From Natronobeatus ordinarius (lineage in GTDB: Archaea > Halobacteriota > Halobacteria > Halobacteriales > Natrialbaceae), in NCBI RefSeq assembly GCF_024362485.1, contig NZ_CP101456.1, positions 3,286,001-3,350,000 of the forward strand: DNA of 64,000 nucleotides. The letters are read 5' to 3'. The notes under the pieces are model-generated. The model made no database searches. It saw only the letters and a list, made by a program, of their open reading frames with translations, and was not told the origin of the DNA. The stretch's first letter is position 1; every line of letters begins with the position of its first letter. Made by a program: the position numbers and the translations under genes. Shown here one piece after another: positions 29,046 to 45,911 of this stretch.

Positions 29046-29885
29046 ATGAGAGATCCAGACGGACTGCTCGCCCGGGCGGGCGTCCGGGGGAACCCCGACC
29101 GCGACCAGCACTTTCTCGTCGACGACCGCGTGCTCGATCGGCTCCCGACCTACCTCGAGGAGGGAGCCGCCGACACGAGTCACGTCCTCGAGATCGGTCC
29201 CGGAACGGGGGCGTTGACCGACCGGCTGCTCGCGGTCGCCGACCGGGTGACGGCGATCGAACGCGACCGCGATCTCGCGGCCTTTCTCGAAACGGAGTTC
29301 GCCGACGAGATCGACGTGGGCCGACTCGAGGTCGTCGCGGGCGACGCCCTCGAGGTCGACCTCCCCGCGTTCACCGCGTCGGTCTCGAATCTCCCCTACG
29401 GCGTCTCGAGCGAGATTACCTTCCGGTTGCTCCCACGAAAGCGCCCGCTCGTGTTGATGTTCCAGAAGGAGTTCGCCGAGCGGATGGTCGCCGAGCCGGG
29501 CACCCCGGAGTACGGTCGGCTGTCGGTGTCGACCCAGCACTACGCCGACGTCGAGCTGGTCGAGCCCGTCCCGAAGGAGGCGTTTTCGCCGCCGCCGGCG
29601 GTCGAGAGCGCGGTGATTCGGACGATCCCGCGGGAACCCGACTACGAGGTCGACGACGAGGCGTTCTTCCTCCGGTTCGTCAAGGCGCTGTTCACCCAGC
29701 GTCGCAAGACGATGCGGAACGCGATCCGAAACACGGCACACATCTCCGGCCTCGACGATCCGGATGCGGTCGTCGAGGCGGCCGACGAGGACCTCCTGAA
29801 GAAGCGTGCCGGAGCGGTGACGCCGCGGGAGTTCGCCGAACTCGCTACGCTTGCCGCCGCCGTCGGGCTGGACGACGAGTCGTGA
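29046..29885 (+). CDS. ksgA: 16S rRNA dimethyladenosine transferase
   Basis: The 279-residue enzyme has SAM-binding motif VLEIGPGTGALTDRLL and the catalytic N-L-P-Y motif in SNLPYGVSSEIT, plus the usual DQHFLVDDRVLDRL start. It dimethylates two adenosines near the 3' end of 16S rRNA. The ATG at 29046 is used; upstream codons lack family features. The stop codon is immediately followed by the 25-bp minisatellite. Confidence 0.94.
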   Translation: MRDPDGLLARAGVRGNPDRDQHFLVDDRVLDRLPTYLEEGAADTSHVLEIGPGTGALTDRLLAVADRVTAIERDRDLAAFLETEFADEIDVGRLEVVAGDALEVDLPAFTASVSNLPYGVSSEITFRLLPRKRPLVLMFQKEFAERMVAEPGTPEYGRLSVSTQHYADVELVEPVPKEAFSPPPAVESAVIRTIPREPDYEVDDEAFFLRFVKALFTQRRKTMRNAIRNTAHISGLDDPDAVVEAADEDLLKKRAGAVTPREFAELATLAAAVGLDDES

Positions 29886-30003
29886 CCTGACGCGGTGAGC
29901 CGGCTCGCGACCTGACGCGGTGAGCCGGCTCGCGACCTGACGCGGTGAGCCGGCTCGCGACCTGACGCTGCGAGTGCCCTCGTGACGTCGTGAGCCGGCT
30001 CGT
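29884..30003. repeat. 25-bp tandem repeat (minisatellite)
   Basis: The unit begins GACCTGACGCGGTGAGCC and is 25 bp long. Three perfect copies lie at 29884-29908, 29909-29933 and 29934-29958, followed by a diverged 25-bp copy and a 20-bp shortened one to 30003. It starts within the ksgA stop codon. It has no interspersed spacers, so it is not CRISPR. Confidence 0.85.
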
Positions 30004-30262
30004 GACCTGACGTCGTGACCCCGCTCGTTCCGTACCGCCGCGAACCGTCTCAGCCGTGACGGACACGCTCGCGAGGAGGGCGAGAACGTGAAGCGGCGAC
30101 GTGTAAAGGGACGACTAGACCCGGCGTCGGCCCGGATCGTACTCGAGTGCGCACCGATCGGCTCGGTGCGATCGCGACCGGGCCGAACTGAAACGGCGGC
30201 ACGAATCGACGAATACACGGCGTTCCAGCGAAACGACCTCCAGTAGACACACCTCACAGACG
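30004..30262. other. Gene-free stretch between minisatellite and mscS
   Basis: The first bases are a worn remnant of the tandem unit (30004-30020). The rest contains no coding feature. A promoter for mscS should be near its end but no strong TATA element is obvious. Confidence 0.35.
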
Positions 30263-40501: not shown

Positions 40502-40604
40502 GCACGCAGGTAGGTGCTCGAGGACTACCACTCTTTGGCGCTCGAACGGCAACACTGGTGCTCACCGACCCCCGGACGGAAATAACGCGTGCACGTCGTC
40601 AGCT

Positions 40605-41173
40605 GCCCACGACTGAAGTCGTGGGCTTCCCCCCGCACCGCAACGGCACCGCGCCGCGGGGTGGGGTTTCGGCCCACGCTTCAATGAACGTCGGAGGCGG
40701 GTTGTATAGTGGTCCGGCACTGCGCGGGACCACCGCACACCACTTTGATTGGTCGTGGACTCCGGCTCTGACCGTCGCGCCGAAGCGCGACGGTACGAGT
40801 GTGGAGCTACGTTCGCCATCCACGTCCCGATCGCTTGTTCCGATTTCTCGGGGGCACGCTGACCGGTGCCCAACCCGGACGGACGCCGTGTCTCGCACTT
40901 CCGTGCGGAGGTCGACGAACCGCTTAAGGCTCTTTGGCCGTCCGGTACAGTGGGTCCACACTGGACCTCGCGTCCGCCCCCGGAGAGGACGGACACCCGC
41001 CCCACGAAGCGGTTTTCTCGCCGATTCTGTGCCGTCCACGACGAGTGCCTTTGTCGGGCGAGCTTCCCGGCGGAAGGACGTGTTGTCGACCAGCCTGTGG
41101 TACGGTGACAGTCCGCAAAAACGTTGCGAAACCGCCCCCAGTGTCGCATTCCTCCCACGGCTAAAGCCGTGGG
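40605..41173 (-). mobile_element. Hairpin-bounded non-coding element, IS200/IS605-like ends
   Basis: Two related hairpins in the same orientation bound the region: GCCCACGACT/AGTCGTGGGC (40605-40626) and CCCACGGCT/AGCCGTGGG (41154-41173), each followed by GGGCTTCC-type sequence on the plus strand. Read on the minus strand this is GGAAGCCC-hairpin, the usual shape of IS1341-type ends. The interior has no recognisable protein but folds strongly, for example ACCGTCGCGC-CGAA-GCGCGACGGT (40779-40802). It fits a TnpB-less derivative, perhaps carrying a guide-RNA scaffold. Confidence 0.5.
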
Positions 41174-41235
41174 CTTCCTGCTTGAATCCGGGTGAACGAA
41201 GTGGGTTATTCGTAGCCACCGCTCACTTCCGCGGG

Positions 41236-41566: not shown

Positions 41567-41705
41567 TTGCAGTGAGGCGCACACCGCGCCGAACGAAAAT
41601 GCGGAAGGTCCTGCAGTAGCGATCTTCCCTCGCAAAGCTTCTGCAGAAGAGCCACCAGTAGTAGGTAGTAGTAACACTTTTATCAGAAAATGATAGTTGA
41701 CTTCC

Positions 41706-44700
41706 ATGGGGATATTCGACTCCAATGGTAATAGTGGCTTGAGGCGACGATCCTTCTTGACCGCCCTGGGTGCAACCATGGGCGGCCTCGCGGTTGGCTC
41801 ATCGGCCACTCACGCGGACGACTTCGACAGCGGCGAGACGGGCGTTCCGGTCGTAGACGGCCAGCTCGCTCAGCTGGGATTCTACTCGAGTGCGAGTCAG
41901 ATCGCCGCCGACGGCGAACGCGAGCTGACGGCCGACGACCACGTGGTGGTGTGGGCCGAGCCCACCGCCGAGAACTTCGAAACGACTGCCGACGGACCTG
42001 AAACGGTCGTCTACGAGGATGCGGACATCCCACTCGTCTCCGAGGACGGCCGGGTGGTCGGCTTCGGCTCCGTCGACTTCGTCAGTGACAATCACGGTGG
42101 CTTTCGCTTCGGCAACGAACAGTTCCTCGTCAACCTCTTCGATGAGAAACTCGGCGGCGAGGGGACGATTCTCTGGGACGAGGGCCACGGCCAGTTCGGG
42201 GGGCTCGCCCTCGAGAACTACGAGTCCTTCCGCCAGTACTGCGCCGATGCGGGCTACACCCTCGAGGCGACGGAGTCGCTGCTCGAGACCGAGATCACGA
42301 CGCTGACCGTCGATTCGACGGCCAGCCTCGTCGACGTCGACGGCACGGCGCTTACGAACCCCGAATACGTCGTGGTGTGGGCCGAGTCAACCGCAACCAA
42401 CGTCGATCGGGAGGACGACGACGCCTATCTCTACGGGGACGACGAGGACATCCCGCTGATCGCCAAGGCGGGCCAGGTCGTCGGGTTCGGTGGCGTCGGC
42501 TTCATCGCCGACAGCAACTTCGACAACTTTACCGAGGCCAACGAGGCGTTCGTCCTCGAGGTGCTCGCGGACGTCACCGACGGCGAGGGCACCCTGCTCT
42601 GGGACGAAGCCCACGACACGTTCTGGGACGCCGACGCCATCAGCGACTTCGCGGCTGCCGTCGAGGACGACGGCTACGACTTCCAGGCCGTCAGCGAGCT
42701 GGAGGGGTCCGACTCGCTGGAGGAACTCGAGTTCTTCTCGACGGCGAGTCTGCTCACCGCAGAGTATACCCCGCTGACCGACGAGTCGCTGGTGGCCGTT
42801 CACGCCGAGTCGACGGCGACGAACGAAGACGCGGGCGACTCCGGCGGGGCCGGCGAGTCAGGAGGTGACGACGAAGTCACGCTGGCGGTCGATTCCGTGG
42901 AGGCGGGGGCGACTGCCGAACACGTCTGGACGCTCGCCGGTGCGGACGTCGACTTCGAGGGAGAGATCGACGAACTCGTGCTCGAGTACCCAGAGAGCGC
43001 AGCGTTCGACGGCCTCACGAACGACGACGTGACCGTCGTGTTGACCCGTGAACTCGCCGACGGGGTGGACACGGAGGAAATCAGCGTCAACCAGGGTGCG
43101 TACGACGGCTCAAGTGCGACGCTCGATCTGAGCGGCGCCATGACAACGAACATCGTCGGCGAATCCACCGTCACCATCGAGGGGCTCACGAACCCCGACA
43201 GCGAGGACTTCACGGCGACGATCACGCTCACCGGCGACGACGAGGTTACCCTCGAGGCCGTGGTCGGGGCGGGTGGAGCCGGAAGCGGCGACTTCGTTCC
43301 CTACCCGGACGACGTCGACATCCCGCTGGTGGCCGTCGACGGCGGCGCCGTGGGGATCGGGGCCGAACTCGCACCGGACGCGAGTGACGTCGACGACAAT
43401 CGGGCGTTCCTCGTGAACGCCTGGGCCGACCGACTCGGCGGAACCGGGAGTGTCCTGTACGACGAGGGCCACGGCCAGGAACTCGCCCTCGAGGACTACA
43501 GCCAGCTCGAGTCCCTGGCGACCAGCCGCGGCTTCGACGTCGAGGCGACCACGGACCTCGAGGACGACCTCGCAGACGCCGACCTCCTGATGGTCACCAC
43601 GCCCGCCGAGTCGTTCTCGGGGGACGAACTGACAGCCCTCGCGGCGTTCGTCGACGACGGCGGGGCCCTTTTCCTGCACGACGAGGCGAACTTCGAGGGT
43701 GACGGGACAGAGGAACTGAACGAGATCGCCGCCGCCCTCGAGCTGGCGTTCCGGTTCAACGCCGATCAGGTGGTCGACGACGAACACAGCGGTTTCGCCC
43801 CGTTCGTCCCCCGTACGAGCGCGTTCAACACCGATTTCGACTTCTTCGGGGATGGCGACACCCTCGAGAACGCGGCCGTCTTCGTGACCGCCTCGCCCGC
43901 ACAAGCGTTCAGCGACGCCGAACGCACCGCGCTCGAGGAGTTCGTCGCCGACGGCGGCGCCGTCTTCCTCTTCGACGAGTCCGAGTTCGCCAACGAGGAG
44001 ACCGACAACCTGAACGCCATCGCCGAGGCCCTCGACGTCCCGTTCCGGTTCAACGCCGACCAGGTCGAAGACGCCGAGAACAATGCGGGGGTGGAGTACG
44101 TGCCGACGACCGGAAACTTCAACGAGGGCTTCGAGTACTTTGGGGAGGTCGACGGTCCGACGCTCAGCGACGGCGATGGACTGGTCGTGATGACACCCGA
44201 GCAGTCGTTCTCGAACGCGGAGTTGAACGCCCTCGCGGCGTTCGTCGACGACGGCGGCGCGCTGTTCATCTTCGACCAGTCGGACTTCGGCGGCCAGGGG
44301 AACGAGGCCGTCGGCTTCGACGAAACGGAGAACCTGAACGAAATCGCCGACGCCCTCGAGCTGGCGTTCCGGTTCAACGCAGATCAGGTGAACGACGAGG
44401 AAAACTTCAACATCACGACGGGGAATTTCAACGACGACTTCGCGTACTTCGACGAACGCGAGCAGTCTATCGCCATCCCGTTCGAACAGGGCGGTGCGTA
44501 TTACGGTCGGGTCGTTCGAGTGTTCGACGGAGACACCTTCGAGGTCGAGTTCGACAGCGAGTACGACTACCGGGACGTGATCCGCCACATCGGTATCGAC
44601 ACGGCCGAGACAGCGCCAGCGACGAACGATCCCGAGGAGTGGTTCGGGATCGAGGACCTCGATCACCTCGACACCTGGGGATCGAAGGCGACTGACTTCT

Positions 44701-45911
44701 CACTCGACGTCATGGCCCCCGGAGCCGACGCCGGCGAGCCGAACGTCGAAGGGCGGCGGGTCAAGATGACGTTCGACCCCGTCGAGCCCAAGCGCGGCAA
44801 CTACGGCCGCCTGCTGATGTACATGCACTACGATCCCGACGACTTCGACGCCGATCCTGGGGCGGACTTTGCGGTGAACTACAACCGTGAAACCATCGAA
44901 AAGGGGTACGCTCGCATCTACTCCTCGGGTTTCTCCAAACACGACGAGTGGGCCGAACTCGAGGAAGCCGCCCTCGAAGCGGGCACCGGCGTCTGGAGTG
45001 CAGCCGACTTCGACGCCCTCGAGAAAATTCGCAACGAGCCCGTCGAGAAACTGTTCGTTCCCGAGGCCCGAAGCATCCACAGCCGTCGAGGTCGCCGCGG
45101 CGGACGTCTCGGGGCCGACCGCGTCCCCGTCTACGCGGGGGAGACGGCCGAGCAGGTACGCGAAGAGGGGGCCGTGGCGTACGACGACGCTCCCCTGGTC
45201 GCCGTGGACGATCGGAAGAACCTCGCGCTCGTCGGCGGGCTCATGATCCACGAACGGTACGAGAAAGCAGCGGGGTTCGTCGACACGACGGACTACGGCA
45301 ACTTCCCGTTCCTCGCGAATCTCATCGACTCTCTGTCGACGACCGAAGGCGACGTGTTCATCGCCGGCGGCCAGGGGCAGTTCAACGCACCCGGCTCGAT
45401 CTCCCTCGAGCGCTGTCAGTACTTCCTGCGATACCTCGAGGGACTCGGCACCCGCCTCCGGCAGGTCAACGACCTCGAGGACACCCTCGCGGCCGAGGAC
45501 GAACCGCCGCGGGCGGTGATCATCACGGCACCCGAGCGTGAACTCGGCATCGGCGAGGTCATTGCCCTCCGGCAGTTCCGCAACGACGGCGGTGCGGTGA
45601 TCCTCATGGGTAGCGCCGAGGCGACGACCGAGGACGTAGCGAACCTGAACGAACTCGCTCAGGGGCTGAACTCCGATCTCCGGTTCAACCACGATCGAAT
45701 CGTCGACCCAGCGGCGAATCTGAACGACGATCCGGGGATCCTCGAGACCGACGTCTTCACCGACGGATTCGACCTGTTCGACGCCGCGGACCTCGAAGCC
45801 GAGACCGAAGACGACGGTCGTTCGGGCCGGGGTAATGCGGGGGACAACGGCCGTGGTCGCGGTCACAGGAACGCCAACGTCCGTCAGGGGTTCGGGGCGA
45901 CCGGTCGGTGA
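41706..45911 (+). CDS. Secreted multidomain protein with thermonuclease (SNase) domain and DUF4350-like repeats
   Basis: The 1401-residue protein starts with a Tat signal, LRRRSFLTALGATMGG. The N-terminal ~930 residues hold about five related units resembling DUF4350/GATase-like modules, with recurring DEGHGQ, AAFVDDGGALF, ELAFRFNADQV and FNEGFEYF motifs; a beta-sandwich lies at about 395-520. A complete SNase domain follows at about 930-1095, with catalytic residues recognisable in RVFDGDTFEVEF (Asp), VIRHIGIDTAE (Arg, Asp, Glu) and YGRLLMY (Arg). A further unit and a Gly/Arg/Asn-rich tail end it. Extracellular nucleic-acid degradation is inferred. Confidence 0.85.
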   Translation: MGIFDSNGNSGLRRRSFLTALGATMGGLAVGSSATHADDFDSGETGVPVVDGQLAQLGFYSSASQIAADGERELTADDHVVVWAEPTAENFETTADGPETVVYEDADIPLVSEDGRVVGFGSVDFVSDNHGGFRFGNEQFLVNLFDEKLGGEGTILWDEGHGQFGGLALENYESFRQYCADAGYTLEATESLLETEITTLTVDSTASLVDVDGTALTNPEYVVVWAESTATNVDREDDDAYLYGDDEDIPLIAKAGQVVGFGGVGFIADSNFDNFTEANEAFVLEVLADVTDGEGTLLWDEAHDTFWDADAISDFAAAVEDDGYDFQAVSELEGSDSLEELEFFSTASLLTAEYTPLTDESLVAVHAESTATNEDAGDSGGAGESGGDDEVTLAVDSVEAGATAEHVWTLAGADVDFEGEIDELVLEYPESAAFDGLTNDDVTVVLTRELADGVDTEEISVNQGAYDGSSATLDLSGAMTTNIVGESTVTIEGLTNPDSEDFTATITLTGDDEVTLEAVVGAGGAGSGDFVPYPDDVDIPLVAVDGGAVGIGAELAPDASDVDDNRAFLVNAWADRLGGTGSVLYDEGHGQELALEDYSQLESLATSRGFDVEATTDLEDDLADADLLMVTTPAESFSGDELTALAAFVDDGGALFLHDEANFEGDGTEELNEIAAALELAFRFNADQVVDDEHSGFAPFVPRTSAFNTDFDFFGDGDTLENAAVFVTASPAQAFSDAERTALEEFVADGGAVFLFDESEFANEETDNLNAIAEALDVPFRFNADQVEDAENNAGVEYVPTTGNFNEGFEYFGEVDGPTLSDGDGLVVMTPEQSFSNAELNALAAFVDDGGALFIFDQSDFGGQGNEAVGFDETENLNEIADALELAFRFNADQVNDEENFNITTGNFNDDFAYFDEREQSIAIPFEQGGAYYGRVVRVFDGDTFEVEFDSEYDYRDVIRHIGIDTAETAPATNDPEEWFGIEDLDHLDTWGSKATDFSLDVMAPGADAGEPNVEGRRVKMTFDPVEPKRGNYGRLLMYMHYDPDDFDADPGADFAVNYNRETIEKGYARIYSSGFSKHDEWAELEEAALEAGTGVWSAADFDALEKIRNEPVEKLFVPEARSIHSRRGRRGGRLGADRVPVYAGETAEQVREEGAVAYDDAPLVAVDDRKNLALVGGLMIHERYEKAAGFVDTTDYGNFPFLANLIDSLSTTEGDVFIAGGQGQFNAPGSISLERCQYFLRYLEGLGTRLRQVNDLEDTLAAEDEPPRAVIITAPERELGIGEVIALRQFRNDGGAVILMGSAEATTEDVANLNELAQGLNSDLRFNHDRIVDPAANLNDDPGILETDVFTDGFDLFDAADLEAETEDDGRSGRGNAGDNGRGRGHRNANVRQGFGATGR

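Follow-up and report, generated by a model that had tools for sequence, protein, structure and literature searches.

The window analysed here is a stretch of 64,000 nucleotides from Natronobeatus ordinarius (NZ_CP101456.1, positions 3,286,001 to 3,350,000), and on its minus strand, between positions 41191 and 40598, lies what is, by its sequence, a TnpB-less derivative of an IS200/IS605 (IS1341-like) element, that is, a palindrome-associated transposable element (PATE). Near-terminal palindromes of the IS605 kind are present, terminal inverted repeats are absent, and at 594 bp the element is too short for a transposase or TnpB. An earlier note on this DNA had drawn a structured non-coding unit at 40605-41173, between two like-shaped hairpins in direct orientation with a shared flank. 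Both hairpins are indeed in place, each with its GGGCTTCC flank (repeat pair D4, 88% identity), while the extent had to be redrawn because it left out the true ends. Intact TnpB elements have these ends too, arranged around tnpB in the same order, both in this genome (L044, L038/L045) and in the relatives L002, L006, L008, L010, L011 and L035; by pattern search, this hairpin type occurs at two of the genome's 17 TnpB loci (L044, L045). The transposon-adjacent motif (TAM), TCAC, stands at the equivalent place in 10 of the 11 elements inspected that carry the A-domain described below, a set that does not include L206; in L110 it reads CCAC. The direct hairpin orientation and the ends without inverted repeat rule out a miniature inverted-repeat transposable element (MITE) of a canonical transposon. 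The idea of a MITE-like unit with its own guide-RNA scaffold is supported at the level of sequence (no tnpB, IS200/IS605 ends, a TCAC TAM, a guide-RNA or ωRNA core, and a pseudoknot between that core and the element end), although the features of a canonical MITE are absent.

A protein-coding interior can also be ruled out, both by the lack of any Pfam match (E<=0.1) in the overlapping reading frames at 40599-41219 (minus), 40866-41108 (plus) and 40934-41164 (plus) and by loop lengths that vary among copies; a spanning frame of 350 aa has only two sub-threshold Pfam hits, at its 3' end and outside the element. The earlier view of an interior without coding signs needs one amendment, in that the interior holds two short remnants of tnpB coding sequence. 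The minus strand folds with a z-score of -4.35 (0 of 100 shuffles equally stable), and the interior stems reported earlier do exist, albeit at shifted coordinates: ACCGTCGCGC/CGAA/GCGCGACGGT lies at 40771-40794 rather than 40779-40802, and CGCACTTCCGTGCG starts at 40894 rather than 40898. The second RNA domain, derived in part from tnpB, was absent from the earlier note. Coordinates of all features are collected in Table 1.

The ωRNA core was recognised with a covariance model, R1, built solely from the ωRNA regions of eight aligned TnpB-linked elements. Its next-best place within the window scores 13.2 bits, and of 17 sources with a TnpB-less element, R1 detects that element in 14 (E<=0.0034), the window among them. 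The loop of stem E and the transposon-encoded motif (TEM) at the element end form an exact GTCAGC/GCTGAC pseudoknot in the window, and complementarity over six nucleotides between this loop and the last six nucleotides holds in 8 of 8 TnpB-linked and 12 of 12 A-domain TnpB-less elements, through four different sequence pairs. Such a loop-TEM pseudoknot is described for haloarchaeal ωRNAs in section 3.3.3 of PMC12558985. Stem D reads CCACGGGG/CCCCGTGG in two other copies (L063 and L031), a compensatory change read off the sequences, and directly past the right end, from 40597 downward, begins a putative guide of the kind the earlier note had proposed to look for at either end.

At gathering score, Rfam has no match that overlaps the element, and below that threshold there are just weak hits, up to E 5; a group I intron, HEARO or other known RNA is thereby ruled out. 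Gathering-score matches are equally absent for RF02656 and RF02657, named for the haloarchaeal sense-overlapping-transcript RNAs (sotRNAs, or ωRNAs) in PMC12558985. Because eight loci with TnpB-linked or TnpB-less relatives are likewise without a match at that score, Rfam does not cover this ωRNA subfamily.

The second RNA domain, the A-domain, is built from an 11-bp helix P1, a 7-bp helix P2 and a 6-bp pseudoknot (PK) that joins the P2 loop to the 3' flank of P1, and is carried by 12 TnpB-less elements in 7 genomes. A second copy elsewhere in the genome (L031) is 77% identical over 115 nt of the interior, and one from another genus (L063) is 72% identical over 164 nt. An exact pattern added four further copies in Halegenticoccus tardaugens (Haloferacaceae), the sole source in a collection of 84,980 genomes that may not include the window's own. 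From these seven sequences (the window, L031, L063 and the four of H. tardaugens) we built model R2, which gave eight strong hits (>90 bits), three being training sequences, in 6 of 392 Halobacteriales genomes. No viral carrier turned up in two exact-pattern scans of viral contigs or, by DNA similarity, in a phage collection.

Across the 12 elements, 94.4% of the cells of P1, P2 and PK are paired, 14 of the 24 pairs have changed on both sides, and 47 cells are double changes. P2 is paired in every cell (100%; five of seven pairs changed on both sides) and PK in 97.2% (three of six). The observed value was equalled on none of five measures in 500 shuffles, and slid structures reached at most 46.2%. 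The choice of pseudoknot in this set was not blind, having been spotted after the scan of reading frames described below had pointed to it. The search for copies and the covariance analysis proposed in the earlier note thus yielded both further copies and covariation.

These results bear directly on whether the element is simply in decay, the remnant of a TnpB element after deletion, in which the ωRNA and the pieces of tnpB no longer have a function. Core deletion of IS605-type transposons is a known origin of PATEs (PMC3119063), the genome lacks a TnpA of matching hairpins, and the window copy has no promoter-like box. Neutral decay would not compensate, however, and is disfavoured for that reason, given that P1, P2 and PK are kept in all these elements and genomes with their many double changes, and the TEM pseudoknot in 12 of 12. 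We regard decay as improbable, even if for the window copy alone it is possible.

The A-domain is not an invention of TnpB-less elements, a notion ruled out by the weaker R2 hits: 23 of 26 fall in tnpB reading frames, at the codons for (H/D)KGTRS...SGRE(N/T)RFVL, while the other three (L116, L126, L128) look like chance. The order is collinear in TnpB-bearing and TnpB-less elements, namely left end, A-domain, stem D, ωRNA and right end. In the 47 distinct tnpB segments that we collected, P1 is paired in 98.4%, P2 in 99.5% and PK in 98.6%; the combined figure of 98.8% compares with a maximum of 92.9% in 500 within-column synonymous-codon shuffles, and the 87 double-change cells with a shuffle maximum of 39. 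The number of pairs with a double change was equalled in 2 of 500 such shuffles; the count of pair types (360 of 500) carries no information. Pairing of at least 95% is seen in 11 of 963 variable-column pairs, and the top five of these by mutual information all belong to P1 or P2; one P1/P2 pair couples the third base of a Thr codon with the third base of an Arg codon (T-A 37, C-G 7, A-T 3).

A blind scan of 42 full reading frames (210 antiparallel runs) returned ωRNA stem D, P1, P2 and ωRNA stem E as its top four, with the pseudoknot fifth, at a level matched by three of 175 parallel-control runs. On a tree built without the tnpB segment and without the ωRNA, P1 and P2 show 13 same-branch double changes from paired to paired, 4 single changes from paired to paired and 5 that break or repair a pair; random third-position pairs on the same tree change both sides in 628 of 3648 events. 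A possible further helix, P0 (columns 22-26 with 127-131 of the 47 segments), is suggestive, and no column pair exceeds its pair 24-129 in mutual information; we do not claim it, because pairing is only 89%.

G-U outnumbers A-C in P1, P2 and PK by 28:3 in tnpB and by 20:3 in TnpB-less elements, and we take the folded form to be the sense RNA because of this bias on that strand. The same one-strand bias, the collinearity with the ωRNA and the position of the interior domains far from the ends all argue against hairpins that work as single-stranded DNA for a transposase rather than as RNA, an explanation that we find highly improbable. Nor is the A-domain a property of all TnpBs: the pseudoknot is intact (6/6) in 48 of 49 segments of the subfamily and reaches at most 3/6 in 23 segments of other TnpBs, so that, on the segments compared, the RNA structure is confined to one TnpB subfamily. 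Rfam 15 has no family for the P1/P2/PK structure, and we found no literature description of an RNA structure within tnpB coding sequence, in a search that was thin on subscription journals.

Table 1. Features of the TnpB-less element and its flanks (positions in the window).
Feature	Position	Strand	Remarks
Whole element (PATE)	40598-41191	minus	left end 41191, right end 40598; 594 bp; ends by alignment to TnpB-bearing elements and TnpB-less copies
TAM TCAC	41192-41195	minus	directly outside the left end
Left-end hairpin GCCCACGGCTTTAGCCGTGGG	41154-41174	minus	
A-domain, pseudoknotted RNA domain partly derived from tnpB coding sequence	40954-41066	minus	model R2, 128.3 bits (window in training set)
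P1, 5' strand	41053-41063	minus	pairs with 40995-41005
P2, 5' strand	41039-41045	minus	pairs with 41017-41023
PK, loop strand GGACGG	41032-41037	minus	pairs with 40987-40992
P2, 3' strand	41017-41023	minus	
P1, 3' strand	40995-41005	minus	
PK, 3' strand CCGTCC	40987-40992	minus	
Stem D, 5' strand CCGGACGG	40938-40945	minus	pairs with 40875-40882
Stem D, 3' strand	40875-40882	minus	
ωRNA stem E	40852-40871	minus	loop GTCAGC, complementary to TEM
ωRNA core, match to R1	40751-40857	minus	30.9 bits, E 8.9e-4 in 131 kb
ωRNA stem G, 5' strand	40824-40832	minus	pairs with 40751-40760; one A-C mismatch in the window copy
ωRNA hairpin F	40772-40793	minus	the CGAA stem of the earlier note
ωRNA stem G, 3' strand	40751-40760	minus	
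3' extension, ωRNA core to right-end hairpin	40627-40750	minus	holds TACAACCCGCC (40696-40706) and GAAGCGTGGGCCGAAACCCC (40663-40682)
Right-end hairpin GCCCACGACTTCAGTCGTGGG (minus strand)	40606-40626	minus	
TEM / element end GCTGAC	40598-40603	minus	perfect complement of the stem E loop
Putative guide GACGTGCACGCGTTATTTCC	40578-40597	minus	flanking host DNA; position set by the right end; length of 20 assumed

Overall, we think it probable that an internal deletion removed tnpB from an IS200/IS605 (IS1341-like) element, and that the non-autonomous remainder persists as a mobile guide RNA, one that guides TnpB in trans. The sequence itself shows the ends, the TAM, the ωRNA core, the TEM pseudoknot, the conservation of the A-domain, and its covariation in TnpB-less elements as well as at synonymous positions of tnpB. 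The minus strand would encode one long structured RNA, with a 5' A-domain, a complete ωRNA scaffold, the 3' extension, and the right-end hairpin with its TEM, followed by a guide from the flank. The RNA would be transcribed from that strand and bound by a TnpB encoded elsewhere, an intact member of the parent family in the genome. There is one such TnpB of the parent (KGTRS) subfamily, L044, of 427 aa with the RuvC motifs GVDLN, IAVERL and DGDYNAAKN. TnpB may then cut TCAC-adjacent sites emptied by excision, and repair would restore the element and favour its retention, as has been proposed for TnpB (PMC10278001); movement itself would depend on TnpA in trans. The A-domain may act at the RNA level on the TnpB-ωRNA complex, by recruitment, protection of the 5' end or feedback control, since it is retained in elements with no reading frame to regulate; its conservation where no protein is made likewise disfavours a role in translation. 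A bolder extension, which we hold to be about evenly balanced, is that a segment of tnpB doubles as a pseudoknotted RNA module with pairs selected at synonymous sites and that, freed from coding, this module persists in TnpB-less elements, where it forms the 5' domain of a long guide RNA that controls or recruits TnpB in trans.

At the same time, the RNA could be a regulator rather than a guide, one that restrains TnpB, with the A-domain as a portable inhibitory region of tnpB mRNA and the ωRNA part as a decoy occupying TnpB. In the bacterial AmaTnpB, whose target DNA also has a TCAC TAM, nt 825-875 of the mRNA, beside RuvC-II, lower DNA cleavage (PMC10278001). The A-domain of L044 lies at nt 686-769 of the reading frame, about 50 nt upstream of the RuvC-II codons, and it is this shared position next to RuvC-II that makes a regulatory role a live rival. 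Nonetheless, a decoy would not need the TAM, the TEM pseudoknot and the right-end hairpin in full, and all three are retained; moreover, the AmaTnpB authors proposed pairing with the ωRNA, whereas here no helix between A-domain and ωRNA rises above control. We therefore consider a mainly regulatory RNA unlikely.

Several observations weigh against a mobile guide RNA. R1 gives L076 only 13 bits and has no hit for L088 and L089, and a whole-genome R1 search, in which 150 of 1202 candidates were scored, listed four places, with neither the window nor the second copy among them. P1 is mismatched at one pair in 7 of the 12 elements. A TATA-like box upstream of the A-domain is found in none of the three elements of the window's subtype (window, L069, L071); in the other subtype, five of nine elements have ACTATA or TTAGTA, placed 67-69 nt upstream of a conserved motif in the A-domain. 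The single TnpA element of the genome has different hairpins (CCACGGGTCAGGTGACCCGTGG), which makes present mobility here doubtful. Copies within the genome are only about 58% identical, so they are old and there was no recent burst; with L069 and L071, of another family, the window copy shares 81-83% identity, and this cross-family identity, exceeding that to its own sister copy, suggests horizontal transfer. Finally, joining the flanks did not find an exact empty site, no relative being matched across the junction. Gene spacing, by contrast, favours an insertion: in nine relatives (G014, G016, G038, G040, G054, G130, G135, G144, G152), the matches to the flanking genes lie 96-205 bp apart by distances worked out by hand. 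Between the same points, a query joined without the element spans 135-158 bp, and the window some 594 bp more. The orthologous locus of these relatives therefore lacks the element.

A second TnpB-less group, type III (about 380-560 bp; L032, L033, L076, L085, L089, L092, L093, L099), has TTAC ends, the 3' extension motif and, in most members, the ωRNA core, and is without the A-domain (no R2 hit at the element). The 3' extension is common to L069, L071 and the type III elements. Loop and TEM form all six pairs in L093, L089 and L099, and in the other five type III elements the script's best pick forms five of six. A search for the 3' motif with two mismatches (43 of 392 genomes) is diluted by chance hits, judging by the reversed-pattern control columns, and therefore only hits then followed by the right-end hairpin were used.

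Other observations concern individual copies and the surrounding DNA. At L109:1290-1400, the left-end hairpin is interrupted by several dozen inserted bases, which form hairpins of their own. The Halegenticoccus copy at L068:4838-5650 sits among ACTGGAAATGGTGGGGT-type repeats beside a reading frame like that of Orc1/Cdc6, with repeats and frame recognised by eye. Because its putative guide is similar to the repeat, this copy could target a replication origin. In the window's genome, six loci (L052-L057) encode TnpBs of 466 aa whose model scores are identical; they seem to be a recent expansion of another TnpB type. The window also holds a tandem repeat of 25-base units at 29880-30028 (up to 6.2 copies) and, at 41697-45911, a large reading frame in which DUF4350/ABC_transp_aux-like domains recur, alongside a staphylococcal-nuclease-like domain.

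Structured RNAs carried on IS200/605-type elements are familiar from IStrons and from standalone HEARO/IscB ωRNAs, and the window element differs in having no Rfam match to a group I intron or HEARO. The PATEs of Haloquadratum are alike in being TnpB-less, in their IS605-like near-terminal palindromes, in lacking terminal inverted repeats and, for some, in an origin by core deletion, whereas a guide RNA or conserved internal RNA is not part of their description in the available portion of PMC3119063. Haloarchaeal TnpB ωRNAs, for example those of Halobacterium salinarum, share the right-end hairpin, the loop-TEM pseudoknot and the guide past the right end, and their overlap with the 3' end of tnpB is seen in TnpB-bearing relatives of the window element; unlike the systems presented in the accessible part of PMC12558985, the window element has no tnpB, carries a 5' A-domain and a long 3' extension, and belongs to no Rfam family at gathering score. 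A 489-bp PATE of virus HRTV-DL1 and its Halorubrum host gives strong, strand-specific RNA at one end (PMC10544981), which is precedent, not proof, for transcription here; by DNA similarity, the phage collection holds no relative of the window element. The inhibitory region of AmaTnpB is likewise an RNA signal in tnpB coding sequence near RuvC-II in a system with a TCAC TAM, but it is bacterial, no conserved structure is reported in the available part of PMC10278001, and the likeness is one of position. PATEs and ωRNAs are known; a family of TnpB-less elements that combines a conserved guide RNA with a domain also found in the tnpB reading frame is, as far as our searches go, a new variant.

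PATEs of this type would move from inert debris to candidate mobile guide RNAs, and the proposal makes a testable claim about how nuclease-free elements persist. An RNA structure within tnpB coding sequence could account for the reported inhibitory effect of tnpB mRNA, and would matter for codon-optimised TnpB tools. In this context, the window element offers a case of one stretch of DNA that was first both protein segment and RNA structure, and later RNA alone; it suggests that RNA machinery within a gene can persist after the protein is lost.
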